The notes: generated by a model from the sequence alone, not told the origin. A stretch of DNA of 28,742 nt from a virus (IMGVR_UViG_3300024346_000384:1-28742), one strand, 5' to 3'. Positions 3,392 to 24,530 are shown, counted from the stretch's first letter. A program made the numbers and translations.

Positions 3392-3399
3392 ATCATTTT

Positions 3400-4926: not shown

Positions 4927-4948
4927 AATTTAAAATAAAAAATAAACT

Positions 4949-5521: not shown

Positions 5522-5535
5522 AATAAATCACGAAT

Positions 5536-6690: not shown

Positions 6691-6710
6691 CGGACTTAGT
6701 TTCTAAACAG

Positions 6711-6773: not shown

Positions 6774-6778
6774 ATACT

Positions 6779-7273: not shown

Positions 7274-7276
7274 ATA

Positions 7277-7747: not shown

Positions 7748-7749
7748 TA

Positions 7750-8205: not shown

Positions 8206-8810
8206 TGGCTAGGCGGATCTCAGTGAGAGTTAACAGAAATGTTACCCTTAAGGAGGTTATGACCTCAAACAAGGGCGCATTAGCCCGTTTGCTGAGAAAG
8301 GAAGTGGGTCCAGAAATAGAAAAAAAACAAAGAGAGCTTATCTCTGAGTTTGAAAAACACCCCGTTACTTTAGAAATTAAAGGAGGCAATTCTGCTCCTG
8401 CATCAAGTGGAGTTACTGGTGGCTATGGAAACCTTTTCTCATTCATAGGTTTTGAGAACGGTGCTCGTCCTACAGCAAGTATCAGGCAGTTGTTGGATGA
8501 AAAAATTCAATTTAATGTCAGGAGCTTGTCTTCAAATGGCTTATTTAAAGTAACAATGAAAATACCTGCATTGGAAGAGATTTTTTCAGTTTCCCCTATT
8601 CCTTGGGCGGAAGGGTCTAGTTGGGCAGAGGGAATAGAAAAAGGAATAAGTAATATCGGGTCTTATGTGTATACTACTAGTGGATTCTCTGGGTCTAGGT
8701 CTGGGTCTGGATTACAGTCATCAAACGGCGCTGGAACTACATTCAACGCGACTCCCTATATGTCCAAAATAATAGAGGACTTCAAGAAAAATTTAAAAAA
8801 ACTTAACTAA
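8205..8810 (+). CDS. Putative tail-completion (HK97 gp10-like) protein
   Basis: The protein is 201 residues. It starts with a basic segment, then a helix (GALARLLRKEVGPEIEKKQRELISEFEKHPV) followed by a glycine-rich part containing LFSFIGFENGARP. HK97 gp10-like tail-completion proteins share this plan: an N-terminal helix of the form KKEVGPEI, then a strand pair. The region SSWAEGIEKGISNIGSY could hold the amphipathic part that packs in the neck ring. The C-terminus is Ser/Gly-rich and ends in IIEDFKKNLKKL, a common ending in this family. Both its start and stop overlap the neighbours as TAATG, which suggests coupled translation. A role between head closure and tail terminator is inferred. Confidence 0.55.
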   Translation: MARRISVRVNRNVTLKEVMTSNKGALARLLRKEVGPEIEKKQRELISEFEKHPVTLEIKGGNSAPASSGVTGGYGNLFSFIGFENGARPTASIRQLLDEKIQFNVRSLSSNGLFKVTMKIPALEEIFSVSPIPWAEGSSWAEGIEKGISNIGSYVYTTSGFSGSRSGSGLQSSNGAGTTFNATPYMSKIIEDFKKNLKKLN

Positions 8811-9685
8811 TGAAAGCCCAGTTTGATCAAAATTTACTATCAAGTTTTTACCTTTGGTTTGAAAACCGATTGTTAAAAGATGATATAAAAGCTTACGTAC
8901 AGGATTTAGATAACACATTTAAATATGTGGAGTTTTCAGATCTGCCAAGTGATTTTATTGGTTATCAAGGACAGTTTAGACAACTTGTTGCAGAGAATTC
9001 TGTAGAAAGCCCTAACTCTGGCGTGTTTATTAATGGAGACTTTGTCACTGGAGATAGCAGTGCTAATGGGAGTGTTTTTATAGACAACCAAGAAGGCCGA
9101 GTTGTTTTGCCTCTGGCCTCTGGAACTAATCTAGAAATAACAGCTAATTCAACAGTAAAGGAAATTAATACATACATCTCTAATGATAGTGATCTAAATA
9201 TTATTCTTCAGTCAGACTTTATTGAAAACGGTCAAACAAGCCCATACTTTTTTAATCAGTCCGAAAAGCTTGATGAAAAAACGTTTTTTTTACCTGCTTG
9301 TTTTATATCTTTAGCTTCTTCAGGCAATGACGAGCATTGTTTTGGAGGGATGGAGGAAACAAAAAGCAGAATACAAGTAATGGTTCTCACAAGAGATAAT
9401 TTTATAATAGATAGTATTATATCTAAATTTAGAGACACGGCTAGAGAAAGCATAAACAACATACCATATGAAAGTTTTCCTTATGGTTTTTCTTATTCGG
9501 TGAAAAGCTTCCCTTACGAGTACGATGAGTTAAAATCTAACTTTGAAGATGGCATGACAACACACATAGATAAGGTTGGTGTATCCAAGGTTTTTTCTGA
9601 AAAGCTAAGAGAAGCTATTAACAAAGACTTCTCAATAGCTACGATGGACTTTGATTTGTCAACTTATAGATTCCCAAGACTGTAA
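8810..9685 (+). CDS. Putative tail terminator or neck protein
   Basis: This 291-residue protein occupies the place of the tail terminator, immediately before the tail tube gene. The N-terminal helix LLSSFYLWFENRLLKD resembles the opening helix of terminator proteins, and the C-terminal half has a mixed helix-strand pattern (RIQVMVLTRDNFIIDSIISKFRDTARESI), where a strand is followed by a helix as in the gpU/gp17 fold. The middle, about residues 55-160, is a Gly/Ser/Asn-rich insertion with beta-like segments (GVFINGDFV, NGSVFIDNQ, GRVVLPLASG), making the protein about twice the usual terminator length. The inserted part may be exposed on the virion. Function is inferred, and a different neck role is possible. 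Confidence 0.5.
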   Translation: MKAQFDQNLLSSFYLWFENRLLKDDIKAYVQDLDNTFKYVEFSDLPSDFIGYQGQFRQLVAENSVESPNSGVFINGDFVTGDSSANGSVFIDNQEGRVVLPLASGTNLEITANSTVKEINTYISNDSDLNIILQSDFIENGQTSPYFFNQSEKLDEKTFFLPACFISLASSGNDEHCFGGMEETKSRIQVMVLTRDNFIIDSIISKFRDTARESINNIPYESFPYGFSYSVKSFPYEYDELKSNFEDGMTTHIDKVGVSKVFSEKLREAINKDFSIATMDFDLSTYRFPRL

Positions 9686-9689
9686 TCTT

Positions 9690-9696
9690 GTGTAAT
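9690..9696 (+). promoter_or_regulatory. GTGTAAT motif before the tail tube gene
   Basis: GTGTAAT (9690-9696) lies in the 33-base gap before the tail tube ATG at 9719, leaving 22 bases after the motif. TGTAAT occurs again at 9681-9686, ten bases earlier and across the stop codon of the previous gene. No convincing -35 box was found, so activity is a proposal based on the recurring motif. Confidence 0.35.
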
Positions 9697-9718
9697 TTTA
9701 AAAAACATTCTCATTAAT

Positions 9719-10813
9719 ATGGCAAGAACAAGAATTATCTCACAGAACAAAGCAGTATTCGCATCAGCCACTGGCTGGGGCGGAGGACCAACGACCCCTA
9801 ATCAAATCCACAGGGTCGATACATTTTCATTCGAAGTTGATCAGGCTGGAGCACGGACCGATATTCGTGAATTCGGACAACTATCTCGAATTGCAACAGA
9901 AATTACCTCAGAAATCACCCCAACGCTTTCGTTTGGATACTTTCTTGGTGAAGGTGAAAACGAAACTAGACTCGGACTAACCACTTCCGATCTAGATGCT
10001 CAAATCATCAGCGGCATTCTTACCGAAGACGCTATTGCAAGACAAAAAAACATTTATGTTGTTACAGTCAAAGAGGGAGAGGATGCGTTTAACGCAACTT
10101 CTTGGGATGCCGATGTAGCAGAACAAGACACCATTGGTTTCGGCAATGTAACTCTTACGAGTTACACTGCAAGTTTCTCTGTTGGTGAAATCCCAAGGGT
10201 TGATATTGAAGCTGAAGCTTCCAATGTTGTATTTATTACTGGAGCTCACGCTGGGGATAACCCTTCTGTTGACGAAGGTTATAATAGACAAGCAGGAACA
10301 TTTGATATAGATGCGCCAAATACTGGAGTCATGGACTTTGCAGTATTAAGACCCCAAGATGTTCAGGTGAGCTTCGAGAACGATGCTATTTCAGCTGGAG
10401 ACAACATTGGAGTTGATTTATCAAACATCTGTGTTCAAAGCGCTACGGTAGAAGTTCCTCTAGCGAGAGAAACTGTTGAGTGCTTGGGCAAGGAAAGAGG
10501 AAATAAATATCTTGAGTTCCCAATTAACGTTACCGTTAATCTGAGCGCTCTAGTTAGCGACTTCAAAGAAGGGTCTCTTGAATATGTTCTTACGGGAACA
10601 GCTGGAGAAGACAAGACAGACATCACTATTCGCGTTGACGACAAGCTGAACGTCCCTGTTCATTACTTCAGACTTAAGAATGCTGTTCTTGATAGTCAAG
10701 GTTTCAACACATCTCTAGATGACAACGAAACTGTAGATCTTACCTTCTCCGCACAAATTGCTGGAGCGGCTACGAACACAGAGGGTGTCTTCTGGAGCGG
10801 CAAATCAGCATAA
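9719..10813 (+). CDS. Major tail tube protein
   Basis: The 364-residue product is beta-rich and non-membrane, and should polymerise into the hexameric rings of the tail tube. Signs of this family are the N-terminal strand region HRVDTFSFEVDQAGARTDIREFGQ, NVTLTSYTASFSVGEIPRVDIEAEASNVVF, and a later block VDLSNICVQSATVEVPLARETVECLGK, after which KYLEFPINVTVNLSALVSDF follows; proteins of this type often carry two related tube-like domains. The C-terminus (QGFNTSLDDNETVDLTFSAQI) is typical of tube proteins. Codon use is intermediate and leans to C-ending codons, as expected for an abundant protein. The gene is followed by a strong terminator and no sheath gene precedes it, which points to a non-contractile tail. 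Confidence 0.78.
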   Translation: MARTRIISQNKAVFASATGWGGGPTTPNQIHRVDTFSFEVDQAGARTDIREFGQLSRIATEITSEITPTLSFGYFLGEGENETRLGLTTSDLDAQIISGILTEDAIARQKNIYVVTVKEGEDAFNATSWDADVAEQDTIGFGNVTLTSYTASFSVGEIPRVDIEAEASNVVFITGAHAGDNPSVDEGYNRQAGTFDIDAPNTGVMDFAVLRPQDVQVSFENDAISAGDNIGVDLSNICVQSATVEVPLARETVECLGKERGNKYLEFPINVTVNLSALVSDFKEGSLEYVLTGTAGEDKTDITIRVDDKLNVPVHYFRLKNAVLDSQGFNTSLDDNETVDLTFSAQIAGAATNTEGVFWSGKSA

Positions 10814-10831
10814 TAAAAATTAATATAATCT

Positions 10832-10868
10832 AAGCAAGCCCTTCCTTTTTGGTTGGGCTTGTTTTTTT
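10832..10868 (+). terminator. Rho-independent terminator after the tail tube gene
   Basis: CAAGCCC (10835-10841) pairs with GGGCTTG (10855-10861), and outward pairs AAG/TTT (one G-T wobble) lengthen the stem to ten. A run of seven T follows (10862-10868). The loop carries TCCTTTTTGG, as in the terminator after the capsid gene. The gap of 69 bases between genes holds only this terminator and the GTGTAAT motif. Confidence 0.9.
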
Positions 10869-10875
10869 GTGTAAT
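10869..10875 (+). promoter_or_regulatory. GTGTAAT motif directly behind the terminator
   Basis: GTGTAAT starts at the first base after the terminator T-run and ends 7 bases before the ATG at 10883. If TGTAAT (5 of 6 to TATAAT) acts as a -10 box, the transcript would be nearly leaderless. A good -35 box at 16-18 bases upstream is absent, because that region is the terminator loop. A gene start this close to a terminator needs a promoter, which supports the proposal. Confidence 0.45.
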
Positions 10876-10882
10876 AAAGGGT

Positions 10883-11371
10883 ATGGCTTGTATTTCGCAT
10901 CTTGATTTTATCGAAAAAGGACTTTATGGTTTCACTTTGAACATAAACCCCAGTTATGATGGCTTTGAACTTCATTTGGGTAAGTATTTCGAGGATTCAG
11001 AGTCTTCGTGTGAATTGTCTGAAACAGGAGTTTCTTTTTCTGGTTCTAATGGTTTCATTTTTGACCAAAGTGGAAATTTCTTTGGGGGATACACTCCAAA
11101 CGAAAACTTTTCTATACAGATAAACAAAAAGGACTATGATTCATTCTCTTATTCGTTTAATAATAAGCTGATTGCAAACAACATGTTTTTTGAAGACGAC
11201 GCTATAAATGCAATAAAATTTGAAAATCAAGAACTGTCTAGTTTGGAGGGTGTTGTAAAATCCCCAGAAAAGGGATTTGTTGCCGCAGGTACTTTTGGTG
11301 AATTTGTTAAAGATAATTTAGAAAATAGGTTGTATTCTTCAGATAATATACTACTAATTAGTCATTTATAA
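10883..11371 (+). CDS. Unrecognised protein between tail tube and chaperone genes
   Basis: I do not recognise this 162-residue protein. The ATG at 10883 is chosen over an upstream in-frame start at 10853 because the latter lies within the terminator hairpin. The sequence is rich in Phe, Ser, Asn and Gly, with short beta-like segments (GLYGFTLNINPSYDGFELHLG, SETGVSFSGSNGFIFDQSG, ENFSIQINKKDYDSFSYSFNNKL), which resembles a small beta-sandwich virion protein and loosely the style of the LamG-like protein at 22426. There is no signal peptide or membrane segment. It is the first gene of the late tail unit and ends 3 bases before the first chaperone-like gene. Minor tail protein is the best guess. 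Confidence 0.55.
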   Translation: MACISHLDFIEKGLYGFTLNINPSYDGFELHLGKYFEDSESSCELSETGVSFSGSNGFIFDQSGNFFGGYTPNENFSIQINKKDYDSFSYSFNNKLIANNMFFEDDAINAIKFENQELSSLEGVVKSPEKGFVAAGTFGEFVKDNLENRLYSSDNILLISHL

Positions 11372-11374
11372 CAT

Positions 11375-12139
11375 ATGAAAGAACTCTACTCATTCGACAT
11401 CACAAGGGATATTGTAACCAAAACGCCATATACAAAGAAAACAAAAAAAGGAGAAGTCGAAGCCTTTAAAAATAAAACCTCAAAAAAGAAAACAAAAATT
11501 ATAATCGAAAAGCCTAGCATTTCTGCTATAGAGAAGGCCGAGTTCTTCTTTGGGCAAAAGTATAATGAGTATATTAACGCTGGGTTTTTAACAAAAGCAA
11601 TGTTGCTGAATAAGATCGGAGAAACAGGAACATCTATGGTTAGCGAAGAAGTGGCTAATGCTGTTACAGAATATTTAGAAGCTTCTAGGGTTATTGAGTT
11701 TTATGGCGGAGCTGATAAATTAACAGATGATCAAGAAAAGAAGCTAAATGAGGCAAAGAAAAAATTCTCAGAAACTCAAATGCTTGTTCACGAACATGAA
11801 AGTAATGTCAGAGGTCAATACAGCCAAACAGCAGAAACAAAAGCTGAAGAAAAGATGATCGAATGGTTTATCTTTAACTTCTCTTATTACGAGGACGAAG
11901 TAGATGGAGAAAAAACTTATTTCCCTTTGTTCGAGGGTAACAGCTTTGGAGAAAAAAGATCGTTCTTCCTAGAGCTTTCAGAAGACAAGGAGGACATCCA
12001 GACGGAAAATGTCCTTAATGCTAAGGATATTTTTGATGAGTCTTTCGATATGATAGCTAAGGCTGTAAACATCTGGTATAATAAGCTAGGTTCTAACAAG
12101 CAGGAAATAGACGCAAAAATAAAAGAGATCTTTGGTTAG
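11375..12139 (+). CDS. Putative tail assembly chaperone, upstream partner (gpG-like)
   Basis: This 254-residue acidic, helical protein lies two genes before the tape measure, where siphoviruses encode the chaperones that coat the tape measure during tail assembly. The first 45 residues are very basic (TKKTKKGEVEAFKNKTSKKK). Then come helices such as SAIEKAEFFFGQKYNEYINAGFLTKAMLLNK, ADKLTDDQEKKLNEAKKKF and AETKAEEKMIEWFIFNFSYYED. The end of the protein (DIFDESFDMIAKAVNIWYNKL) resembles the C-terminal helix of G-type proteins. It ends in TAG, and the next gene continues in the same frame 6 bases later. Lambda makes its G and GT proteins by a -1 frameshift; here the frame relation would need readthrough or reinitiation instead. 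Confidence 0.6.
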   Translation: MKELYSFDITRDIVTKTPYTKKTKKGEVEAFKNKTSKKKTKIIIEKPSISAIEKAEFFFGQKYNEYINAGFLTKAMLLNKIGETGTSMVSEEVANAVTEYLEASRVIEFYGGADKLTDDQEKKLNEAKKKFSETQMLVHEHESNVRGQYSQTAETKAEEKMIEWFIFNFSYYEDEVDGEKTYFPLFEGNSFGEKRSFFLELSEDKEDIQTENVLNAKDIFDESFDMIAKAVNIWYNKLGSNKQEIDAKIKEIFG

Positions 12140-12148
12140 AAAAAAGTG
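12137..12148 (+). other. In-frame amber junction between the two chaperone-like genes
   Basis: Bases read GGT TAG AAA AAA GTG AAG, with TAG closing the first gene and GTG the first possible start of the second, in the same frame. Between TAG and GTG there are only two lysine codons and no other start. Readthrough of TAG would make a fusion of about 547 residues. The A after TAG is a context generally regarded as leaky in bacteria. Reinitiation at GTG is the simpler alternative. Confidence 0.45.
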
Positions 12149-13018
12149 AAGTCTAATAATAAAATTTCTGACTTAATAATGGTAGACATATTAAGGGGTT
12201 ATAGCATACTTAGACACGAAAATAAAAAATTCTACTTTAAGCATTTCTCTATGCTTGATTATTTGGGACTTGACGAGATCGAGGAAGAAAGTTATGAAGA
12301 TGCCGTAAAAAGCGGCATTAAATCAGAAAAAGAGCTTTTAGAGAGGGCTGTTGAAATAGGATTTTGGTCTAGAGAGTTAGAGGAAGAATGTAAATCCTTA
12401 CAGTGGGCTGTTGAAAAACACCAAAATGCACTTGACAAGATGCAAGATAGGGCTCAAAAATTAATATTTGAGAAATCAACAAAAGAAACCACGGAAAGGT
12501 TTGAACAGATACAATCTAAAAGAAACAAAATCATAAATTATAGCGCAGAATCATTAGCCTTAAGAAAAAGGAGTTCTATGCTTATTGATGGGAGTATCTA
12601 TAAAGACCCCGATTTCAAAGAACCTATGGAGGACGCCGCAGATGGAGTTATAGGTCTTCTGTGTTTTAGTAAGGTAAAAGATCTTTTTGATAGAAATAAT
12701 TTAATTAGAGCTTCCTATAGTAATTTGTTTTTTGAATCTTTTATTTATCAAAGCAAAAACCCAATAGCGTTATTCAGTAAAGACTTTGCCTCAATTACTG
12801 TTTTTCAAAGCAAGTTGTTGGCTTTTGCTAATATTTTATTAAACAAGCTTAAAAATGTTGATAAAATACCAGAAGCCGTTAAAGATGACGCTGTTAAATT
12901 GTATAATTACGATAAAGATAGCAAAGTAGCAAAAGAAAACACAACAGAAGGTATGGATGATTTAAAGGCCAAAATGAAGAAAAATGGCAAGATATCATCT
13001 GAGGACCTTTTATCTTAA
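12146..13018 (+). CDS. Putative tail assembly chaperone, downstream partner (T-like)
   Basis: The product is 290 residues from GTG at 12146; an ATG at 12179 (codon 12) is an alternative but would leave an unusually long 39-base gap. The protein is helical and charged. It contains ISDLIMVDILRGYSIL, an alanine-glycine helical block (SYEDAVKSGIKSEKELLERAVEIGFW) and coiled-coil stretches (QWAVEKHQNALDKMQDRAQKL). The C-terminal part (VFQSKLLAFANILLNKLKN) is hydrophobic-helical and could contact the tape measure. It ends 18 bases before the tape measure ATG, the standard place of the T domain of G/GT chaperones. The same frame as the preceding gene suggests a possible extended product. Family membership is inferred from position and pattern. 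Confidence 0.55.
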   Translation: MKSNNKISDLIMVDILRGYSILRHENKKFYFKHFSMLDYLGLDEIEEESYEDAVKSGIKSEKELLERAVEIGFWSRELEEECKSLQWAVEKHQNALDKMQDRAQKLIFEKSTKETTERFEQIQSKRNKIINYSAESLALRKRSSMLIDGSIYKDPDFKEPMEDAADGVIGLLCFSKVKDLFDRNNLIRASYSNLFFESFIYQSKNPIALFSKDFASITVFQSKLLAFANILLNKLKNVDKIPEAVKDDAVKLYNYDKDSKVAKENTTEGMDDLKAKMKKNGKISSEDLLS

Positions 13019-13036: not shown

Positions 13037-16000
13037 ATGCCGTCTTCATTTACAGTAACCGCCGATGTTAAGCTTAATCCACAAAGCTTAACCCAGTCCG
13101 CTAGTCAGGTAAAACAAGCGCTAGGAAGGATAACGGGTCAAGCATCAGAATTTCAAAAATCACTGGATGCCTCCACAGCTAGGGTGTTCGCTTTCGGGGC
13201 TACAACAGTAGTTCTCAACTCTGTTTCGCAAGCGTTTAGGAAGTTGGTTAGTTCCACAATAGAGGTTGAGAAAAGAATGGTAGAAATCAATGCTATTTTT
13301 CAGCAAACTGAAGGTGTTATGAACAACTTTAGGGAAACAATTTTTGATGTAGCCCAACAAACTGGACAGTCATTTGAGACTGTAGCTGAAGCCGCTGGAG
13401 AATTGGCCAGACAGGGTTTAACAGCAGAAGAAACGGCAACAAGACTACAGGCCGCTTTAATATTAACTAGAATATCTGGTTTAGGCGCAGAAGATTCTGT
13501 AAAGACATTAACGGCTGCAATAAATGGATTTACAAGCGCCGCTTTAGATGCGGAAGAGGTTACAAATAAAATAGTTGCAGTTGACACCGCTTTTGCAGTG
13601 TCTGCTCAGGACTTGGCTCAAGGATTGGCTCGAGCAGGATCAACAGCGGAGGACGCTGGAGTTTCATTTGACCAGCTACTTGGCCTTATAACGGCCGTAG
13701 AGCAGAGAACTGCCCGTGGTGGCGCAGTTATTGGTAACGCATTCAAATCTATCTTTACGAGGCTTTCTCGTGGATCTACCATTGATGATCTGCAGGCACT
13801 AGGGGTAGAGATTGACGCAACTCAGACTGGCGTACAAAAACTACAAGCTCTGTCAGAGGCTATTGAGGGTATAGGGGACCCAACCGTAGTAAGTAAAATA
13901 AAAGAGCTTGCTGGTGGAGTTTTCCAAATAAACGTTGTAAGTGCCGCCTTAAAAGATTTAACCTCAGAAACTTCTGTGTTTAAAAAGGCAACCGTTGAAG
14001 CTGCAAATGCTTCTGACGATGCTTACAAAAGAAACGAAGATCTAAATAAATCTTTAGCTGCTCAAATCAATTCATTAGTTCAGGGAGTTACAAATTTAGC
14101 TTCTAAAATTGGCACATTGACATTTGGTCCTTTGTTAACTAATTTAATCTCTATTGCTGGGAAAATAACAGAGGTATTTAATAATGCTTTAGACCCAGAG
14201 AAAGGAAATGCTTTCATAAAGGCTTTTATAAAAGGTATAGGCACTTTCATATCAGGCCCAGGTTTAGTAATAATTACTGCGGCCTTCTTGAAGATAGTAG
14301 GCTTAGTTGCTAAGTTTGCTGCTGATGGCTTTAAGGCTGTTTTGAAAATAGGATCTGCTTCAGAAAAAATAAGTCAGATAGAAGGAGGTATAGTAGGTCT
14401 TCTTTCTAGGGATAAAGATTTAAGAAAAATCATAGCAAGCACAACAGCCACACAAGCTCAAAAAGAAGAAGCCGTTATAAACGCCATAAAAAGAGAAAAT
14501 CAGCTCTTAAGGGAACAAAAAGCACTTCTAAGCAGCCTAACCGCAGCAGCTGCTCGTAGGGGAGTATCTGGGTTTGATCCTGCTTCAGGGTTTGCTGGAG
14601 GGAGGCGGCGTAGATTTGCTGAAGGTTACGTTCCTAATTATGCTAGAAGTAGCGACTTTGCTTTAGAGAAACAGGAAGCCATTTCTCTTGGTGCAACAAA
14701 ATCCGTAAAAGCAATTAAGGGTAAAGGAACTATTGGTGGTAGAAGCTTCATAATGAACGACCAAGAAACCGAAATTCCTAATTTTGGTAGAAACGGTGAC
14801 TCTGCGGTAATTCCTAGTTACGCGAGGGGTTACGTTCCTAATTACGCAGACGCAAAACCATTTTTTAATGAAACTCGTTACGTTTCTTACGGTAAAATAA
14901 AAGGGACTCAACCAAGCAAATTATTTACAGAAAAAAATTCTGCAAAAAATTATCCATTCTTAAGCCAAAGCCTTAAAAACACTTATAATGAGCTTGTCGA
15001 TGGAGCTGGTCCGTTGATTAGATCTAAATTTACAAAATGGAAAAACGGAATAAACGAAAAATCGGTTAGCCTAAAAGATGATCTTAAAACTCCAAACCCT
15101 ACAATTCTTGTACCTCAAGGTAAATCTGGGGGTATATTAGCTACAAGTAAAAATGCTGGAGAAGGGTTTAAAAAGGTTGATTTTGGTTTTCCTATAATAG
15201 GTATTCAAGAAAAAGTAAAAGAAGGTTTAGGTAAGGATTTTGAAGCTAAATTTAATCCTGATGAAATTGAAGCTAATGCTAGAGAAGATGCGGTAAATCA
15301 AGCTAATTCTATAACAAGGATATTGGGTGATCCGCCAGTAAAAGAGGCTCAAATAAGAGATCCAGAAGGGTTCACTGGGGCAATAAGAGCTGCCGCTGGA
15401 GCTGTATTTGACGCTGCAGTGACAAAAGCCCTTCAGCTTAAAGCCTCTAAAAAAGGTGAAGGTGCCGATTTTGATGTTAGAGTAGGAGGAAACGAAAATC
15501 TTAAAAGATTGTTCTCAGGTGAGCCAACACCAACGGAAGGTGCTCTAAAAGGATTGGGTGATTTCAAATATTCATCAAGTGCTCAAAAGAGCATGAAGGC
15601 AAAAACGCTAAAAGAATTAAGGTTAAAACACAAAGATATATACGACGAGCTAAGGTTTGAAAAAGCGGCCCCTCCAAAAAAGAATGTGCTAGCAAACGAT
15701 CCTACTGATCCCAACCCAAAAGATAAAGCAAAGAAAAAAACAGCCAAAAAGAAAACACCAATAGTAAGAGCAAGAAGGGCTTCTGGTTATATTCCTAATT
15801 TTGCTGCGGGAGGAATTCTTGGAGACTTACTAAGAGGAAAAGAAACTACTGATTTAGCTGGAGGTGGGGCTTTAGGAGATGCAATAAAAAGAGAAAAGGC
15901 CGCTGGGTTGCCAGAGTCTCAAATAAGGGTAGAGCAAAGCCAAAAACTAGTTAATAGGGATAACCCTACTGGTTTAGCGGTAACAAACACAAGAGACGAA

Positions 16001-19000
16001 CCAAGAGGATTGAAAGATGTTTTTGCAAGTGGCTACGTTCCAAATTTTGCACAAAAGAAAGAAAGCACTTTCGATAAATTCAAGAAAAAATCGATAGTAG
16101 ATTCCGAAACAAAATTATTATACGGTCTTAAAGATAGAGTAACTAACGTCGAGTCTGATGTAAAAATATTAAAAAACATCTCCGATAATGAAACCTCAAA
16201 CAGGAGAATAACAAAAGACAACTTTGCTTCTGGCTATATATCCAACTTTGCTGGTGGGGGAGCTTTGGGAGACGCTATACAAAGAGAAAAGGACGCTGGA
16301 TTACCAAAATCAAAAATAAGGGTTGAAAGAAGCAAAAGATTAATAAATAGAGATAATCCTAGTGGGTTAGCCGTAACAAATACTATAGACGAGCCTAGGG
16401 GTTTGAGGGATGTTTTTGCACAAGGAAGGGGTAAAGAAAAACAAGGATTTGCGAAGGGGTATGTTCCAAATTTCGCTGCGGCTGCTGCGGCGAGAAATGT
16501 TACAGGCTTCTTGACTAAAAATACAAAATCATTAAGTAAAGAAACAGCGTCGTTGAATAAAGAAACAGATGGGGCGAGGAAGGCTATGAATCTATTTGGG
16601 GGCTCTATTTTAGCTGGATCTGCAGTTTCATATGCTAGCGGGAGGGTTACAGAATCTGCAGATCGAGTAAGAGAGGCGGAAATAGAGGCTATAAGCAAAA
16701 GCGTGGAAGCCAGAAAAAAAGAAACAAACGAAAGGAATGACCTCACACAAAGTGAAAAAGAAGTCATAATTAAATCAATTGATGACGATGCTAGTGCCAA
16801 AACGAAAGAAGTATCTGAAGGAAAGACTACGGCCGAAAGTGTTTTGTCTTACGCTGGTCTTGCCGCCAACGCTCTTATATTTAAAGATCAGATAGCGTCA
16901 GCTGGTAAGGGTATTGGTAGATTCGGCAAGGAAACAAAAAAAAGAGCCGATCAAATCAAAAGACTCGGAAAAAAAGGAATCTTACCAAGCGGTAAAGCTA
17001 TAAGGCCAACGACGACTTCCTCCTCATTACCGAGCAGGTTCGCAGGAAAAGTCGCTACAGACAGCAAGAAAACAGTTGGTAAAAAACTTGCCAAAAAAAC
17101 TGTTGAAAAAGCATCGGGGGGCTTCGTTCGCAAAGCCGCAGTTCAGGTTGGAAGTCGGCTTGTCGGTTTAGTCACTGGAATATTTGGATCGATAGTCGGA
17201 GCGGGGGCAGTTGGTGCCGCTATAGGAACCGCGTTGGACAAGGCTGATCTAAATCCCATCCAAAGGTTCGTTGAAGGAGGGTCTCAAAAAGAAGTTGCTA
17301 AAAGAGAGAAGGTTGAAAGTAGAAATAAAAATTTTGAAAGATCTACTGAAGTAATACCAGCAAGACTCGAGACAATTTTAGCAAAAGCTTTTCCAGAGCA
17401 GGGGTCTTTAATCAGAGAAGAAAGAAAAGATGACATAAGGAGGATAAATGAAAACACCTCCTTAACGGATCGAGGTAAAAAAAGAGAAGTAGAATTTATA
17501 AAACAAGCAGCAAACCCAGAGGGTATTATAACAGAATTAAGAAAGACACTACCAAAAAGGGAGTTTGACTACTTAAAGAGTGCTGCTGCGGAATATGCAG
17601 CAGCCTTAGAAAACGCCGCACAAAAAGAAAAAGAAGGTTTAGATGGGGATGGCTCGGTTATAAGAAATAATGCGGATAAGACATTTGACGCGAAAATTAA
17701 AGTCGTAAAGGGCGGAGGAGAAGCTAAAATACTTAAAAAATATACTGCATTAATAGGCCAACAAGTATCAATACAGCAAGCAATAAATTTAATAACAAAA
17801 AGAAGGGCCGAGACAGAGAACCAAATTCTATCATCGCAGATAAAGGAAAACTTAATTCGTAAAAATATAATTAAAACGTTAAGCAGGTCTAAATCATTAC
17901 TCCCAAAAGATATCTTAGCAGCTGGCGGAGGTAGCATTGTTGATGCCGATATATCTACAATAAAAAATCAAGATGCAAAAAGCAAAGCGGACAAACTTGG
18001 AGCAAAGGCTCAAAACTTAACTGCTCAGTTTTCATCGAAAAGAGAAGAACTTGAGAGGAGTTCCCCGAAAATAAAAAGGCTCAATGAACTCAAACAGAAA
18101 GAAGCTGGCGGAGAAGAACTAACTGATGGTGAAGTAAAAGAAAAAGAATCACTAGGAAAACAGATTAGCTCGATAACAGGAGAGCTTGACGCCCTTCGAG
18201 AAGCGAAAGATCAAGCTGTAATTGATTTCACAATTGCAACAGACGAATACAATAATTCAGTACTTGATGGAGCCAGAGACATTCGTTTAGGGTTAAAATC
18301 AATAGCGGAAAAAATAAAAAGCGACGGATCTCAGGCTATGATAAGAGCTTTTGAAGAATTCGAAGCATTAGCTGAAAATCCTGATGAAGTAGATCCATCT
18401 AAATATAAATCAGCTGCAGACTCATTTTTCAAGGCTTTAGAAGAAGAAGTTAAAAAACAGTATGCAACAAATGCCGTTGCGGCTGGAAACTTTTATTCCA
18501 AAATCGTAAAGGATCTACAAAATCCAGTTCAAGCTGGCAAAGACATAGAAACGAGCGTTGCGGGTTTACAAGCCATAAATTCTGATGATGTAAGTACCCA
18601 AGAAAAAATAAACATTCTTGCTGAGATACAACCCCTACTTAAACAAATTGGGGGAGAGAGAGGGGCGGATTCTGCTCAACTTCAAGAGGTGCTGAAAGCA
18701 GCTTTTGGTAGTAAGGACAGAGAATCTGCTGCCGCTACGTTTAAAAAAATTACAGAAGAGCTTTCAAGAGCGACTATAGCTAACAGGGTCGGAAGTACTA
18801 ACGATATTAACAATGGCGCCATTGAAGATAGAAATTTTCTAGCTGAAAAGAATAAACCAGAAGATCCTGAGGGGTTTGACAAACGGCAAAGAGAACTTTT
18901 CGATAGTTATGACAAATTAACAGGAAAACTTAAGCTTTACGAAAAACAGTTTGAATCAGCAAAATCAGTTAAAACAGCTACAGACGAGCTTATATTAGCT

Positions 19001-19258
19001 ATTGAATCTGCATCCAGTACAGTAAAGATATTGGAGAGTGGGTTTAGTGCGGCGGGTTCTTTTGGGGAAAAAGCGAACAAGGCCATAGAAGCTTCTCAAG
19101 GAAATATAGAAGATTTAGTTGAAACAGCATCAGAAATGACAACTAACTTGCAAAATCTTTCGGAAAGAGAGAAAAATATAGCTTCTGCAATAACAGCTGT
19201 TCAAGCAGTTGTAAATACCATCCTCACCACAAGAGGAGCAGGTGGAGGCGCTGAATAA
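13037..19258 (+). CDS. Tail tape measure protein with repeated motifs and an inserted domain
   Basis: The 2073-residue protein sets tail length and is probably ejected with the DNA. Residues 1 to about 340 match the phage minor-tail tape measure domain (TIGR01760/PF10145), including a segment FGATTVVLNSVSQAFRK and the Ala/Gly-rich helical run EELAGGVFQINVV-like region near 290. Hydrophobic helices at about 401-425 and 1375-1400 could insert in or cross the host membrane during injection. From residue 530 to 1147 there are six GY[VI]xN[FY]A motifs, a 56-residue duplication, and an inserted region of about 605-916 with nuclease-like residues. The C-terminal third is charged, long coiled coil. 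At roughly 0.15 nm per residue, a fully helical protein would give a tail up to about 310 nm; the inserted parts would shorten this. An A/T-rich leader without Shine-Dalgarno precedes the ATG. Confidence 0.9.
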   Translation: MPSSFTVTADVKLNPQSLTQSASQVKQALGRITGQASEFQKSLDASTARVFAFGATTVVLNSVSQAFRKLVSSTIEVEKRMVEINAIFQQTEGVMNNFRETIFDVAQQTGQSFETVAEAAGELARQGLTAEETATRLQAALILTRISGLGAEDSVKTLTAAINGFTSAALDAEEVTNKIVAVDTAFAVSAQDLAQGLARAGSTAEDAGVSFDQLLGLITAVEQRTARGGAVIGNAFKSIFTRLSRGSTIDDLQALGVEIDATQTGVQKLQALSEAIEGIGDPTVVSKIKELAGGVFQINVVSAALKDLTSETSVFKKATVEAANASDDAYKRNEDLNKSLAAQINSLVQGVTNLASKIGTLTFGPLLTNLISIAGKITEVFNNALDPEKGNAFIKAFIKGIGTFISGPGLVIITAAFLKIVGLVAKFAADGFKAVLKIGSASEKISQIEGGIVGLLSRDKDLRKIIASTTATQAQKEEAVINAIKRENQLLREQKALLSSLTAAAARRGVSGFDPASGFAGGRRRRFAEGYVPNYARSSDFALEKQEAISLGATKSVKAIKGKGTIGGRSFIMNDQETEIPNFGRNGDSAVIPSYARGYVPNYADAKPFFNETRYVSYGKIKGTQPSKLFTEKNSAKNYPFLSQSLKNTYNELVDGAGPLIRSKFTKWKNGINEKSVSLKDDLKTPNPTILVPQGKSGGILATSKNAGEGFKKVDFGFPIIGIQEKVKEGLGKDFEAKFNPDEIEANAREDAVNQANSITRILGDPPVKEAQIRDPEGFTGAIRAAAGAVFDAAVTKALQLKASKKGEGADFDVRVGGNENLKRLFSGEPTPTEGALKGLGDFKYSSSAQKSMKAKTLKELRLKHKDIYDELRFEKAAPPKKNVLANDPTDPNPKDKAKKKTAKKKTPIVRARRASGYIPNFAAGGILGDLLRGKETTDLAGGGALGDAIKREKAAGLPESQIRVEQSQKLVNRDNPTGLAVTNTRDEPRGLKDVFASGYVPNFAQKKESTFDKFKKKSIVDSETKLLYGLKDRVTNVESDVKILKNISDNETSNRRITKDNFASGYISNFAGGGALGDAIQREKDAGLPKSKIRVERSKRLINRDNPSGLAVTNTIDEPRGLRDVFAQGRGKEKQGFAKGYVPNFAAAAAARNVTGFLTKNTKSLSKETASLNKETDGARKAMNLFGGSILAGSAVSYASGRVTESADRVREAEIEAISKSVEARKKETNERNDLTQSEKEVIIKSIDDDASAKTKEVSEGKTTAESVLSYAGLAANALIFKDQIASAGKGIGRFGKETKKRADQIKRLGKKGILPSGKAIRPTTTSSSLPSRFAGKVATDSKKTVGKKLAKKTVEKASGGFVRKAAVQVGSRLVGLVTGIFGSIVGAGAVGAAIGTALDKADLNPIQRFVEGGSQKEVAKREKVESRNKNFERSTEVIPARLETILAKAFPEQGSLIREERKDDIRRINENTSLTDRGKKREVEFIKQAANPEGIITELRKTLPKREFDYLKSAAAEYAAALENAAQKEKEGLDGDGSVIRNNADKTFDAKIKVVKGGGEAKILKKYTALIGQQVSIQQAINLITKRRAETENQILSSQIKENLIRKNIIKTLSRSKSLLPKDILAAGGGSIVDADISTIKNQDAKSKADKLGAKAQNLTAQFSSKREELERSSPKIKRLNELKQKEAGGEELTDGEVKEKESLGKQISSITGELDALREAKDQAVIDFTIATDEYNNSVLDGARDIRLGLKSIAEKIKSDGSQAMIRAFEEFEALAENPDEVDPSKYKSAADSFFKALEEEVKKQYATNAVAAGNFYSKIVKDLQNPVQAGKDIETSVAGLQAINSDDVSTQEKINILAEIQPLLKQIGGERGADSAQLQEVLKAAFGSKDRESAAATFKKITEELSRATIANRVGSTNDINNGAIEDRNFLAEKNKPEDPEGFDKRQRELFDSYDKLTGKLKLYEKQFESAKSVKTATDELILAIESASSTVKILESGFSAAGSFGEKANKAIEASQGNIEDLVETASEMTTNLQNLSEREKNIASAITAVQAVVNTILTTRGAGGGAE
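14849..15784 (+). other. Inserted domain in the tape measure with PD-(D/E)XK-like residues
   Basis: This is residues 605-916, bordered by GYVPNYA (598) and GYIPNFA (917). In order it has an Ala-rich helix with Asp792 (GAVFDAAVTKAL), a strand-like ADFDVR with Asp811 and Asp813, and LGDFKYS with Asp842 and Lys844 as the D-x-K. This order and spacing resemble PD-(D/E)XK nuclease cores. The 31-residue gap between Asp811 and Asp842 is on the long side. Activity and fold are unproven. Confidence 0.4.
15860..16420 (+). repeat. 56-residue duplication within the tape measure
   Basis: Residues 942-997 (bases 15860-16027) and 1073-1128 (16253-16420) align without gaps, with 45 identical residues of 56 by hand count. 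Shared features are GGGALGDAI at the start, NRDNP, GLAVTNT and DEPRGL, then DVFA. Each copy is followed by a GYVPNFA motif, at once in the first copy and after a 12-residue linker in the second. The copies are 225 bases apart. Confidence 0.9.
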
Positions 19259-19265
19259 AAATTAA

Positions 19266-20828
19266 ATGGCTCTTATAATAAATAACGTAACTAGCGCTTC
19301 TCAATCAATAAGATATAATTATCTTTCTGAAGAAGAGGCTTTTGGTTTTACTAAAGAAGGCTCTTATGAAATAAACGTTTCTGACATTGAATTTGATGAG
19401 GGTACTGTATTGTTGTCTGGTGTTGAGGCTATAAAACTAGCTTATGAAAATCGTTTTATAGCCGCAAATATTGCTGGGCATCAATATACTAGAGGTAGAA
19501 TTGTATCATTAAGTTTTAGCGAAAGCAACTTGGCTGGGTCTATGGTTGCTTCTGTAGTCATAGAGGAGAGCGAAGTGATGGAAAACAGAGACTCTGGTCT
19601 TTTTGCGAATAATCTATCAAGGCCTGAACATATAGAAAGCTTCAGCGAAAGTTATTCTTTTGATCGCTCTGGAGACTCTTACAGATATTCAAGAAATTTA
19701 AATATAAAATACAAAGAGAGTAGTGGAGCTATAGACTTTTTAACTGAATCAAAGACATTCCTTTTAGATTATTTTAATACAAGACCACAATACGGAAACG
19801 AAATAGATGGTATTTCAGAAGATGCTAGGTTTGATAAGGGTTTCTACGGAAAACTAAATGAACAAGTAGACTTAATTAACCTTTCTTTTTCTCTTAGTGA
19901 AAGTTTTGATTCTGGCGATATTGATTTGGACAATAATGTAAGTATTAAAAAGACATATACTTTATCTGTAGATCAAGGGGGGTATGAAACAAAAACAATA
20001 AATTTAGACCTCTCTAGCTTAAATTATAATACGAATACAACTCTTAAGAACGCCGTTAAAAACTTAATTACCACTATAATTACGGAAGAAGGGTCAGACC
20101 CAAACAGTGTAAGTAAAGGTTTTACTGTCGATGGACGTCAGGCTAATATAACATTAAGTTTCAGTAATAACCCAAACAATGCTGGAGGCGATAATATTTC
20201 TTTTGATTGTAGTAAATCTGAAACTGATGGTAAGGCAACTTATAGTTTAAATATTTCTTATTCCTCTTCAAGCGGAGATAGCAACACGCAAAAATTCCAA
20301 AATTCTATTAATTTATGGAAGATTCAAGACCATTCTTTAGACGCTAGTTTTGTAGCTAGATTATTCCCAGAGGCTGTGCCTATTTATGAGACAAATAGAT
20401 CATCTAAATTTGATTCTGAGAATTCAATTGTATCAGAGACAATAGCTTTCTCTGAAGAAAACTTGTACCAAGAGGTTGCAGTGGGTATCGTAAAATATGA
20501 ACTAAGCGGGAACTCAAACAACTTAAAAAAATCAAGCACGGAACATAGGCATAATATAGGCTTTGATTTGGCTAAAAAGGAAGATTTTTATGAAAGCAAT
20601 AAAAAAAGTAAGCTTACAAACGTTAGTGTAACCTTAAGTGTATCTTTTACTGGAGCCAAGAGGACATCTATAATGAGTTATATGGAATCGAACACCAGAT
20701 TGACTGATATAACTAATTATGCTTTAGGTTTAGCTTCTACAAACCAAATCTTTTTATCGAGTGATTCTATAAGCGTTGATTTTGATAATTATAAAGCATC
20801 AAGAAGATCATCATTTGTAGGATATTGA
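19266..20828 (+). CDS. Putative distal tail or tail-tip structural protein
   Basis: The 520-residue protein directly follows the tape measure, the place of distal-tail (Dit-like) proteins. It is beta-rich throughout, with Ser, Asn and aromatic repeats of the form SYSFDRSGDSYRYSRNLNIKY, INLSFSLSESF and LTNVSVTLSVSFTGA. The N-terminal 100 residues include GVEAIKLAYENRFIAANI followed by RIVSLSFSESN, a block that recurs in pattern in the next gene. No catalytic motif, signal peptide or membrane segment is visible. The ATG at 19266 follows an A/T-rich leader (AAAAATTAA) with no Shine-Dalgarno. Role is inferred from position and composition; it could equally be a tail-tip adhesin scaffold. Confidence 0.55.
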   Translation: MALIINNVTSASQSIRYNYLSEEEAFGFTKEGSYEINVSDIEFDEGTVLLSGVEAIKLAYENRFIAANIAGHQYTRGRIVSLSFSESNLAGSMVASVVIEESEVMENRDSGLFANNLSRPEHIESFSESYSFDRSGDSYRYSRNLNIKYKESSGAIDFLTESKTFLLDYFNTRPQYGNEIDGISEDARFDKGFYGKLNEQVDLINLSFSLSESFDSGDIDLDNNVSIKKTYTLSVDQGGYETKTINLDLSSLNYNTNTTLKNAVKNLITTIITEEGSDPNSVSKGFTVDGRQANITLSFSNNPNNAGGDNISFDCSKSETDGKATYSLNISYSSSSGDSNTQKFQNSINLWKIQDHSLDASFVARLFPEAVPIYETNRSSKFDSENSIVSETIAFSEENLYQEVAVGIVKYELSGNSNNLKKSSTEHRHNIGFDLAKKEDFYESNKKSKLTNVSVTLSVSFTGAKRTSIMSYMESNTRLTDITNYALGLASTNQIFLSSDSISVDFDNYKASRRSSFVGY

Positions 20829-20830
20829 TT

Positions 20831-22420
20831 ATGAACATAACTTACGACTCATATACATTCCCAGATCCTTCTCCTTCTGTGGCTATATCTAGTAATCCTG
20901 TTTATCTTGCTGGAAATTACGATTATAATGTTGGAAGCATATCGTTGGCTGGTATAATAACTGGGGATGGTATTGTTGAACTAAACTCTAGCAGGGAAGA
21001 AATTATTTCCAATCTTTCTTCTGAGTTTAAAACTTTAAAAGTAGATAATGAAATCTATGATTTTGTTAAAGTAGAAGAAATATCATTTGAGGAAAGCGAC
21101 TATACTACTGTGTTGCCATATAGTGTCACGTTTTCTTATTATGAAGAAAAAGTTTTTTCTGATTTTTTTGGAGTCTCAAATCCAGTTGATTCATGGTCAT
21201 TTCAAGAAGAAGACAAGATTGTAACAGCAATTCATATTGTTTCAGCGAAAGGAATAAAAAAAGATGCTAATAGGCCGATAGATAACGCAAAAAGTTTTGT
21301 CAATTCCAAAAGACAAGAAAACATAAATAATGTGTCGGCATTTTTTACAACAATAAATGCCAGTTCTTATGTTCTTGAAGGAACTTCTGAAAAAATAGAC
21401 GAAGCATTAGGGTCTTATTCAATTACCGATACCTATAGGTTTCACGAAGATTCTGCTTATGATTTTGGACTTTCAAATAAAATAGTTAATTGTTCTGTAT
21501 CAATTGATACAGACAAAGAAAGCAAGGTAAAAGCCAAGGTTGACGGAACTGTGATTGGGGGCCTTGACGAAAATAATGTTTCTGTTTCTGATTTTGATTT
21601 TTCTAAAGCTCAAACCATAGCTTTGGAATATTTGAGCGAAAGTAAAGCTACAGGGGAAAACTATTCAATAGCCGATTTGACGGCAGATGGATTCAGTTAC
21701 AACATAAACGAAAAAGCTAACACTATGGGGTTTTCTTTTTCATTGGTTCAGGAAGATCAATCGCAAATTATTAACGGAAACGTTCTTCATAAGTATAGCG
21801 TAGATTTTTCCATATCTAAAGAAAAAGGTTCTTTTATAACGGCGTCAGTTAATGGTTCATTAAGTTATTTTGGCGTAGACAACCCAATACAAGCAGGAGA
21901 AGAAGAAAACAGTGCTAGATGGATAGCTGTTTCCTCTGCTTTCAATACAATAGACCCTTATGCTGCTGCTTCAACAAACTATAATAATTATAAGATTGAA
22001 GTAGGTTCAATTTATGATCTTTCAGCGACTCAATCATTAAGTCCAAAGGAAAAAAATTATAACATAGAAAAAAGCCTCAAATCAACAACAATAAATTATT
22101 CTTATACCTATAACGATAAGTTCGATTTTGGAGCGGCAACAAACCTTAAAAACTTAAAAATAAGTTTAACTAACACCCTTTCTATACCTAAAATAGCTCC
22201 TCTCCAAACGGTCGCTGGATTCTATTCTCAGGTAGTTTCCAATAAGGTTAGGGGTGTTTTTGGAGTAACTGCAAGTGCGTCAAATGGAGCCGCCGATTTA
22301 CCTGCTTTAATGTCTGTAGCAGAGAGTCTTTTTGACAGGGGTTATTTTGTGGCAGACAGCTCCAAGAATATAGGTGTAAAAGAAATTAGTTATAGTTTAA
22401 CCAAATATTATTTAGCGTAA
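20831..22420 (+). CDS. Putative distal tail protein, likely paralogue of the preceding gene
   Basis: The 529-residue protein is beta-rich like the preceding one and seems to share its plan. Its N-terminus has SSREEIISNLSSEFKTL and VEEISFEESD then VTFSYYEE, matching the order of GVEAIKLAYENRF, RIVSLSFSESN and VVIEES in the preceding gene. The middle has beta-like repeats such as YSITDTYRFHEDSAYDFG and INYSYTYNDKFDFGAA. An in-frame TTG at 20825 precedes the ATG at 20831, but ATG is preferred: it follows the previous stop by 2 bases and has AGGA (20819-20822) at a usable spacing. Tandem paralogues in the tail tip may form successive rings. Function is not proven. Confidence 0.55.
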   Translation: MNITYDSYTFPDPSPSVAISSNPVYLAGNYDYNVGSISLAGIITGDGIVELNSSREEIISNLSSEFKTLKVDNEIYDFVKVEEISFEESDYTTVLPYSVTFSYYEEKVFSDFFGVSNPVDSWSFQEEDKIVTAIHIVSAKGIKKDANRPIDNAKSFVNSKRQENINNVSAFFTTINASSYVLEGTSEKIDEALGSYSITDTYRFHEDSAYDFGLSNKIVNCSVSIDTDKESKVKAKVDGTVIGGLDENNVSVSDFDFSKAQTIALEYLSESKATGENYSIADLTADGFSYNINEKANTMGFSFSLVQEDQSQIINGNVLHKYSVDFSISKEKGSFITASVNGSLSYFGVDNPIQAGEEENSARWIAVSSAFNTIDPYAAASTNYNNYKIEVGSIYDLSATQSLSPKEKNYNIEKSLKSTTINYSYTYNDKFDFGAATNLKNLKISLTNTLSIPKIAPLQTVAGFYSQVVSNKVRGVFGVTASASNGAADLPALMSVAESLFDRGYFVADSSKNIGVKEISYSLTKYYLA

Positions 22421-22425
22421 AACCA

Positions 22426-23766
22426 ATGAGTGAAGAAAGCATAAAATATTCACTTTCATCCGTTTTGGGTGGTTATAGCGATTTAGAGTTTTGTTTAGAT
22501 TCAGAACATTCTGTTGTGGAAGCGACTGGGAGCGGGTCTTTTTGGACAGGTTATTTCCCAAATTTATCTCCAGCTGATGATGAATATAGAAATATAGCAT
22601 TAATTTTAAATGGGACTGGGTCTAGCAAGGTAGATGCTATAGCAAATAGTAATAATTTAATAGACAATAATGGTCTATCTTTAATGGATACAAATCTAAA
22701 GATACCATTAAGAGATCTGGACTTGTCGGAGTCTTCGTTTATTTTAGACTTTCAAATGGAAGGCGAAGTATCTAGCGGGATTTTATTTGGGGCTTTTGAA
22801 AAAGAAGTTCTTCTTCTACCAGATTCATCTTACATAACAGGATCGAAAGGATATAATTTTGGAATAACAGATAGGGGTCACTTATTTGTTCAGGGTTTTT
22901 CCTTAAATAGCGGTTTTGTAGAGGTTTTTACTGATATAGAACTTTCCGAAAGAAATGTTTTTTGTTTTAATCACTCTAGCAATTTGTTAGAGGTTGGATT
23001 TTTTGATTATTTTGACGATAATGTAAAAAGTTTTACAAAAGAACTTGATAGTTTTTACTGCCAATCGCCAGAAAATATATATATTGGAGGGACATCAGAA
23101 CTGATTGAAGAAACGATCCCGAACGAAACAACTTTTGACGGTTATTTAAAATCAATAAGTATATTTAATAAAAAAATAAATACAAATTCATTGTATGAAA
23201 TAAACACGGGATTTTTGTCAGATTACTATTTCAACGATGGTGGTCAGGTTTTTATAGAAGAGAAATATTTATCTGGAGAGGTTATAACATATAAAACAGG
23301 TGTAACTGGACACGACTGTAGCATTCTTACTGGATCTGAGACTTTAGGTGTGGTTGGATTAACTGGCGAACCTTATATTACTGGAGAAATTACTGTCCAA
23401 GAGGGTAGCTTGTATACATTTTTGAAAAACGGTAGTCTTGAGCAGGGCAGATATATAAGCAATTTGCACAGCGGTGAATACAATACGACTGGAGAAGGCG
23501 CTTTTGATACGTTAGGTTTAGAAAGCTATTCAGCAAATGTTTCTGGTTACTCGTTTGATTCAGATTATACTTTTAATTCTGGAGATTACAACTATTACGA
23601 ATGCACACCTTTAACTGGTTTTTTAGATGAGGTCAGTGGGGTAGATTTAATTTATGGAACAACTGGGTATTATATTGATTTACCAGACTCTTCTGGGATA
23701 AATTTTGAATTGGATTCTGAAAAATTTAAAATGGAATACATTTATTACGTAGGAGATAGATCATGA
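22426..23766 (+). CDS. LamG-like (concanavalin-fold) tail protein
   Basis: The 446-residue protein probably binds a carbohydrate on the host surface or another virion protein. Residues about 55-255 resemble a LamG/concanavalin-like lectin domain: an early NLIDNNGLSLMDTNLKIPL strand block, SSFILDFQMEGEVSSGILFGAF, GYNFGITDRGHLFVQGFS, and the typical closing FDGYLKSISIFNKKI. The second half is rich in Gly, Tyr, Thr and Ser with TG-containing segments (ITGEITVQEG, YNTTGEGAF, TGFLDEVSG), perhaps repeated strands. There is no signal peptide. The last codons overlap the next gene as ATGA and hold its Shine-Dalgarno. The fold call rests on pattern; binding specificity cannot be read. Confidence 0.6.
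   Translation: MSEESIKYSLSSVLGGYSDLEFCLDSEHSVVEATGSGSFWTGYFPNLSPADDEYRNIALILNGTGSSKVDAIANSNNLIDNNGLSLMDTNLKIPLRDLDLSESSFILDFQMEGEVSSGILFGAFEKEVLLLPDSSYITGSKGYNFGITDRGHLFVQGFSLNSGFVEVFTDIELSERNVFCFNHSSNLLEVGFFDYFDDNVKSFTKELDSFYCQSPENIYIGGTSELIEETIPNETTFDGYLKSISIFNKKINTNSLYEINTGFLSDYYFNDGGQVFIEEKYLSGEVITYKTGVTGHDCSILTGSETLGVVGLTGEPYITGEITVQEGSLYTFLKNGSLEQGRYISNLHSGEYNTTGEGAFDTLGLESYSANVSGYSFDSDYTFNSGDYNYYECTPLTGFLDEVSGVDLIYGTTGYYIDLPDSSGINFELDSEKFKMEYIYYVGDRS
23751..23755 (+). promoter_or_regulatory. Shine-Dalgarno AGGAG for the overlapping downstream gene
   Basis: AGGAG lies inside the end of the LamG-like gene, 7 bases before ATG at 23763. It is the clearest Shine-Dalgarno in the window; most other genes lack one. 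It suits translational coupling at an ATGA overlap. Confidence 0.75.
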
Positions 23767-24527
23767 ATACAGGAATAGCATATCTTTTGTCCACGGGTGT
23801 TAATGGTGTGGTTGGTTGTAGGGATTTTTTAAAGAAAAAAAATAATACATCCAATGTTGTTAACAATACCTCTTTTATCTCTGCAGATATACTAACAGGA
23901 CATTTTTCTACTAGAGTATCTCTAAATGGAAAGACTTTGTTTGAAGAGTATCCAGAAAAAACAAACATAAACGGAAAAGAATTTTTTAATATAGATTCTG
24001 GAGATTATTATGTCACAATAGAGGAAAACGAAAGCACATTACTTTATTTTAATGATTTAGATTTACAGAGTTCTGATTTTGTTATTTATGATTCAAAAAA
24101 TATAGACAGTGGGGCTTTTGCCTTACAGGAAATCACTGGGTATGGAGTTTGGGAAAACACCACAATACCAGAGTTAACGGGAGTTATTTCAGAAAGCCCA
24201 CCAACAGATTTAAATGATTTTTTTGATAGATGGGGGGTATTCTTTAATGGAGAAAGGTTTTCTTTACAAGACTCCTCTTATCTTGATACATTGACAGGAA
24301 AAGCCTTTATATATAAAAAAGATCCCTTTTTAACTGAAATAAACCCAATCACATTTGACGTTTATGGATCTGGAGTTATATCTAATCAATCAGATTATTA
24401 TATAAAAGGACTAGAAAAGGAACAAAACTGCATTCTAGAGATGTATACAGGTGTAACTATTGTAGAAATAGGTGTTCCCGCCACTGTAGAATTCGAAGAA
24501 GACATTATAAATAATTTTACTTTTTAA
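23763..24527 (+). CDS. Unrecognised tail-region protein
   Basis: I do not recognise this 254-residue protein. It is beta-rich with segments GDYYVTIEENESTLLYFNDLDL, FVIYDSKNIDSGAFALQEITGYG and LEMYTGVTIVEIGVPATVEF. Style and TG content match the second half of the preceding LamG-like protein, with which it overlaps by 4 bases and shares a Shine-Dalgarno-driven coupling, so the two probably act together. There is no signal peptide or membrane segment. It stands between the LamG-like gene and the tail hub gene, which supports a minor tail or tip role. There are no catalytic motifs. Confidence 0.5.
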   Translation: MNTGIAYLLSTGVNGVVGCRDFLKKKNNTSNVVNNTSFISADILTGHFSTRVSLNGKTLFEEYPEKTNINGKEFFNIDSGDYYVTIEENESTLLYFNDLDLQSSDFVIYDSKNIDSGAFALQEITGYGVWENTTIPELTGVISESPPTDLNDFFDRWGVFFNGERFSLQDSSYLDTLTGKAFIYKKDPFLTEINPITFDVYGSGVISNQSDYYIKGLEKEQNCILEMYTGVTIVEIGVPATVEFEEDIINNFTF

Positions 24528-24530
24528 AAA

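Follow-up and report, generated by a model that had tools for sequence, protein, structure and literature searches.

Why should a phage tape measure protein (TMP) carry one short peptide again and again in its middle? The question is raised by a viral stretch of 28,742 nucleotides (IMGVR_UViG_3300024346_000384:1-28742, hereafter the window), in which an open reading frame (ORF) at 13037-19258 encodes a protein of 2073 aa; this ORF and all its features described below lie on the + strand. By sequence the product is a TMP, with the Pfam family PF10145 matched at E 1.5e-24 together with 13 PHROG tape-measure families, and terminase and cement-like genes lie upstream of it. Six copies of GY[VI][PS]N[FY]A start at aa 530, 598, 917, 999, 1066 and 1141, and their outer limits, aa 530 and 1147 (14624-16477), are exactly those given in a first-pass annotation made from the sequence alone. 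The pattern which that annotation put in its title, GY[VI]PNFA, was a slight overstatement, as it holds strictly in three of the six copies and the other three deviate by a single residue (two end in NYA, one has S for P). Two further degenerate relatives, EIPNFG (579-584) and AVIPSYA (590-596), are also present. No copy was found in the other frames of the whole window, and shuffling of the TMP sequence gave a chance expectation of 5e-5 matches per protein. Since the copies use different synonymous codons, the motif is conserved at the protein level, and 492 distinct instances yield the extended consensus A-[AS]-x-G-[YF]-[IV]-P-N-[FY]-A, with N in 95% and F or Y in 99%. We propose, with high confidence from comparison of sequences, that the motif is the precise joint between the modules of a modular TMP.

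Module exchange at the motif

When IMG/VR was scanned blind with a DNA pattern for AxGY[VI]PNFA, at least 119 stretches matched, with one large ORF per contig, and the TMP N-terminus was present in 93 of the 126 motif ORFs analysed, the remainder being 5'-open fragments except for one spurious ORF (L012, 275 aa). The motif marks one TMP family in IMG/VR, that of uncultivated aquatic phages, and within it the joints between modules. In the pair L073/L099, the N-terminal part is 99% identical and the REK module, a 45-aa segment of the form DAIxREKxAGxP...NPxGLAVTNTRDEP, is 100% identical, with the cargo between them at 29%; the corresponding values for L023/L105 are 96%, 96% and 2%, and in L030/L121 one module of six stands at 2% between neighbours at 93-98%. 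Further pairs with near-identical N-termini (L001/L003 and L018/L117) have single modules that are wholly different, and L054 differs from L071 by exactly one module plus one motif. The modules that are inserted, deleted or swapped measure ~50-440 aa, with the N-terminal part of the TMP on one side of them and its C-terminal part on the other.

The borders of these exchanges are sharp. A profile of 783 pairs, anchored on the motifs, falls at the left border from 92% identity at the last motif residue to 13% at the next, whereas at the right border identity stands at ~10%, reaches 51-66% when the motif is two or three residues away and is 100% at the motif's G. Independently of this anchoring, 75 of 130 3' ends of high-identity BLAST alignments lay no more than 12 aa from a motif end, a zone that contains 3.1% of residues. 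DNA junctions have 17-21 of the 21 motif bases in common, beyond which identity falls from 0.82-0.98 to 0.18-0.48, and in swaps traced at the DNA level both borders coincide with the motif. The sequences thus strongly support the first-pass suggestion that the copies are insertion points for cargo domains, since in many pairs of relatives a module has been exchanged and both breakpoints fall on the motif. Mosaic signals in TMPs have been detected by sequence in a survey of protein shuffling in phages, whose authors could not confirm genuine recent TMP mosaicism (PMC10684548); the present pairs supply clear recent cases, with modules swapped between 93-100% identical flanks and with exact breakpoints.

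Layout of the array and nature of the modules

TMPs of this family usually run from an N-terminal domain with a hydrophobic segment through a small beta domain to a motif, followed by one to six modules with motifs between them, the REK module, a further motif and the TMP C-terminal part. In the window, the conserved N-terminal domain (aa 1-520, 13037..14596) aligns with 28 relatives at 35-44% identity, and a hydrophobic segment found by a Kyte-Doolittle scan (aa 400-428, 14234..14320) lies 5' of the array. Motif 1 (GYVPNYA, aa 530-536, 14624..14644) is followed by the small beta domain (aa 537-597, 14645..14827), which is modelled with pLDDT ~90 over most of its length, contains both degenerate relatives of the motif, and has nearly invariant E544, N574 and E577 in the alignment of relatives. 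Motif 2 (GYVPNYA, aa 598-604, 14828..14848) and motif 3 (GYIPNFA, aa 917-923, 15785..15805) enclose the large cargo module (aa 605-916, 14849..15784). The first REK copy (aa 945-989, 15869..16003), motif 4 (GYVPNFA, aa 999-1005, 16031..16051), a 60-aa segment that is a singleton in segment clustering (aa 1006-1065, 16052..16231), the degenerate motif 5 (GYISNFA, aa 1066-1072, 16232..16252) and a second REK copy with 35 of 45 residues identical to the first (aa 1076-1120, 16262..16396) come next, and motif 6 (GYVPNFA, aa 1141-1147, 16457..16477) closes the array. The 60-aa segment between the two REK modules has no relatives. The C-terminal part (aa 1148-2073, 16478..19255) is helix-rich by eye and holds a second hydrophobic segment from the same scan (aa 1378-1396, 17168..17224). 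Each copy therefore stands, as first noticed, at the edge of a distinct segment, namely the small beta domain, a ~310-aa conserved domain, two 45-aa modules or the 60-aa singleton. Across the family, hydrophobic helices precede the array in 103 of 107 TMPs, follow it in 70 and lie inside it in 5 (Kyte-Doolittle scan).

In four relatives (L127, L128, L133 and L166) a 'GTKDDVPAMLTAGEFVMRKSAVDKFG' element, which is common in tape measures, occupies the place of the small beta domain; as one replaces the other at the same place, the two may be equivalent, though this is no more than hinted.

Single-linkage clustering of 170 segments of at least 85 aa gave at least 36 module clusters, a rough lower bound, as kinase and nuclease modules were merged in cluster 0. 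Several unrelated, partly enzyme-like modules use the same slots, with up to six per protein. The largest cluster, that of the commonest module, includes aa 605-916 of the window. Across 90 aligned relatives, with a mean column identity of 17% over the whole alignment, all four positions of a tetrad are kept in 87: D813 in 90, K844 in 89, E or D at the position of window D792 in 89, and D/E842 in 88, followed by K/Q856. In the window the tetrad reads D792, D813 and D842-x-K844 (codons at 15410, 15473, 15560 and 15566), and the core is modelled with pLDDT ~80-90 (AlphaFold). The conserved E-D-(D/E)xK order matches the active-site signature of PD-(D/E)XK nucleases, which no fold match confirmed, and a search of 91 members against Pfam found no nuclease family.

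A second module, of ~155 aa and present in relatives such as L018 and L103, is P-loop-kinase-like by Walker A motif (GPAG[ST]GK[ST]), PDB profile match (6c2u, E 4e-4) and predicted fold, for which Foldseek returned adenylate kinases (prob 0.97-0.99) and the PezT toxin (0.87). Another module (e.g. in L018), read as HAD-like, shows YDWDGT, of the DxDGT type, and later DDEE motifs by eye, had no PDB sequence match, and the HAD fold was absent among the top Foldseek matches listed. Modules resembling HAD, GNAT, ART and protein kinase domains were tentatively assigned from motifs and weak Pfam matches (sub-threshold hints of 0.015 for GNAT and 0.0026 for AAA), the ART-like and kinase-like readings of L042 and L047 having been made by eye. 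No clear match to LPD or any other Pfam family was found in the modules of these TMPs. Searches with the kinase and HAD modules turned up no copy outside these TMPs, and nearly every copy had a motif to either side at a constant distance. The window TMP itself bears a single enzyme-like signature, the PD-(D/E)XK-like one; several domains of disparate activity are suggested in relatives, by sequence and by one fold. In eight relatives (L169, L172, L174, L179, L180, L185, L199 and L211) the TMP ORF reaches 3000-3900 aa; it contains five to eight copies of the motif, and its modules are of no recognised type.

Elsewhere in the window, the scanned ORFs of the structural region (1397-13018 and 19266-27032) lack a clear PHROG or Pfam family match; the exceptions are the terminase (2-1327), a weak cement-protein match (4949-5521) and a weak primosomal match (11375-12139). 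The ORFs at 11375-12139 and 12146-13018 are candidates for the TMP chaperone.

Possible roles of the motif and the modules

In AlphaFold models, all modelled motif copies (four in the window TMP and seven in L018) fall in segments with pLDDT<50, and in the window model most segments between motifs are predicted as domains; with a mean pLDDT of 52, the model of L018 is of low quality as a whole, and its linkers are less informative. The motif is accordingly placed by prediction in flexible linkers between separately predicted domains, and a conserved sequence inside a flexible linker suggests a partner that binds or cleaves there. Of the two other roles suggested in the first-pass annotation, docking is a tentative proposal, somewhat less likely than not, and cleavage an unlikely one; a position in such linkers would be expected for either.

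The REK module is one candidate for the partner that reads the motif. A scan for REK only returned 346 stretches, and all 39 of those sampled were in motif-bearing ORFs, with the motif 9-10 aa upstream of REK in 38 of the 39 loci. Within the close clade, 15 TMPs have motif and REK, 2 the motif only, none REK only and 22 neither (Fisher 5e-9); counted on the tree, this link comes down to three independent pairs, which all go the same way (p 0.25). The motif occurs without REK in L176, L182, L183, L185, L187, L188 and L196. In eight relatives (L127, L128, L131, L133, L137, L138, L141 and L166) REK appears by eye to be circularly permuted, with the hairpin first (VPxSxMRVHKDxxGxPxAVTNLRDEP) and the helix last (GLQDAIxRERxG), the usual order being helix first, and such permutation suggests that REK is a compact fold with adjacent ends. 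A weak and inconsistent match of REK to phrog_9836 was treated as chance.

TMPs fill the tail tube, from which they emerge ahead of the DNA during infection, and go on to the membrane of the host (PMC8718954; PMC13190303); for phage lambda the TMP has been shown to reach the host inner membrane (PMC13190303). A TMP with exchangeable enzyme-like modules would deliver them at that point. We consider it probable that the TMP of this family doubles as a reconfigurable cargo carrier in which the motif is the conserved linker between modules, and we also lean towards the modules being cargo delivered to the host. The modules would ride in the tail with the TMP, be ejected at phage injection and act in or at the host membrane or cytoplasm, where several of them would be enzymes (nuclease-like, P-loop-kinase-like and HAD-like). 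Hydrophobic segments bracket the array, which after membrane insertion would therefore come to lie on a single side. Each linker would be bound by a partner, for which the TMP chaperone, the tail tube and REK itself are the likeliest candidates, so that any module could be threaded and packed alike, and hence the motif sequence would be kept, its 21 bp of DNA serving at the same time as a short homology for module recombination. In a bolder version, the tape measure is a plug-in rack for cargo and GY[IV]PNFA a universal connector read by REK as a dedicated domain, so that nuclease-like, kinase-like and other effectors can be exchanged like cassettes and injected before the genome, which would give a widespread group of uncultivated phages a natural delivery system in the tail that can be reconfigured; this version is conceivable but somewhat doubtful.

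Several observations weigh against the delivery of modules as cargo. A tail lumen of ~40 A may be too narrow for folded modules. The window has D792 where the catalytic E is expected, as in 4 of the 90 aligned relatives, and Foldseek searches of its module model against PDB (best E 3.2) and BFVD gave no match; we do not accept the window module as a proven nuclease. A sample independent of the motif, obtained by searching with the TMP N-terminal domain alone, comprised hundreds of relatives, of which 74 were long enough to judge: the strict motif was found in 48, at least a degenerate form in 68 and the nuclease-like module in 61. Being present in most relatives, this module may be a fixed TMP function and not free cargo. 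In addition, the subclade closest to the window often keeps the module with degenerate motifs only, such as GHIPRYA and GFMPKFA at its borders (14 of 38 have the strict form), so that the strict motif is not essential. Absence of the motif from homologues, or a random position in them, which the first-pass annotation had named as telling against its idea, was for the most part not encountered, apart from these degenerate forms.

The frequency of the nuclease-like module also favours another explanation, namely that the modules are ordinary fixed TMP functions (envelope penetration, DNA channel, tip anchoring) whose rapid evolution lets them evade host defences that sense TMPs, with the motif as a generic linker. 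The host defence SNIPE indeed senses TMPs and selects changes in them (PMC13190303). However, the strongest column conservation falls on the catalytic-like tetrad, and the same slots hold several unrelated modules, so we regard this explanation as improbable but not negligible. Somewhat less probable still is that the motif is a protease site, at which a protease of the phage or of its host would cut each GY[IV]PNFA, either while the tail matures or once ejection has taken place, and so free the modules. Its shortness and conservation, the small residues before it (A-[AS]-x-G) and the flexible linkers flanking every module are as in processed polyproteins, and for polyvalent proteins processing by metallopeptidases of their own has been proposed (PMC5512222). 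However, the HEXXH signature of metallopeptidases, a common theme of polyvalent proteins, is absent from the window TMP and occurs in only 2 of 214 related TMP ORFs, no protease family was matched among the window ORFs scanned, and motifs also bound two units of structural appearance, the beta domain and REK. The bases shared at DNA junctions would fit a motif that is merely a recombination seam, spread as DNA homology because it aids module movement and devoid of protein function, but synonymous codons vary within one protein and the residues hold, and the near-constant N and F/Y point to selection on the protein, which makes such a seam very improbable.

Distribution, comparable systems and meaning

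In a collection of 50,697 phage records, the module region had no relative, and only distant TMP N-termini were matched (20-27% identity), three of them without the motif. Contigs of the relatives were binned mostly with Flavobacteria, which is weak evidence for the host, and a literature search for the motif strings found none.

Some TMPs hold lysozyme, peptidase or Rpf-like domains, which attack the cell wall, and they resemble the present family in having enzymatic domains inside the TMP; exchange of those domains at a conserved motif is not known. Polyvalent proteins, known from phages and from conjugative elements (Iyer et al. 2017, PMC5512222), are large, mosaic and fast-evolving polypeptides that combine several unrelated domains, most of them enzyme-like, and their co-injection with DNA is predicted. 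Their carriers are MuF, portal, N4 RNAP-like and plasmid proteins with metallopeptidase domains, and the term 'tape measure' is absent from the text of PMC5512222, whereas here the carrier is a TMP, its modules are internal, and a motif is dedicated to their joints. The Sle1-type effectors that actinobacteria load into contractile injection systems (PMC13277306) share a TMP-related scaffold with an exchangeable functional domain, packaged in a tail-like particle, but they are bacterial effectors with one C-terminal domain on a coiled coil; the protein here is the TMP of an infectious phage itself, in which as many as six modules sit internally and meet at a joint motif. By analogy, the present TMPs may work like polyvalent proteins and Sle1 effectors, but with no HEXXH peptidase in the window TMP, no match to an LPD Pfam family and modules placed internally instead of at the C-terminus, they are not assigned to either group. 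The MuF polymorphic toxins of temperate phages (PMC5576092) also combine a virion-associated carrier, variable toxin-like domains and proposed delivery to the host; MuF belongs to the head region of Firmicutes phages and has its toxin domains at the C-terminus, whereas the protein here belongs to the tail. Polymorphic toxins are recognised by a variable C-terminal domain, and here the variable modules are internal and followed by the TMP C-terminal part.

The usual view of a TMP is that of a ruler and a passage for DNA. If the proposed delivery is true, a large environmental group of phages would deliver exchangeable effectors by the tail and not the head, and a short connector would define where cargo can be placed. 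Three questions become open to direct test: by what means folded domains are carried in a TMP, whether the position of a domain in the tail is set by a defined peptide connector, and what phages inject in the first seconds of infection.

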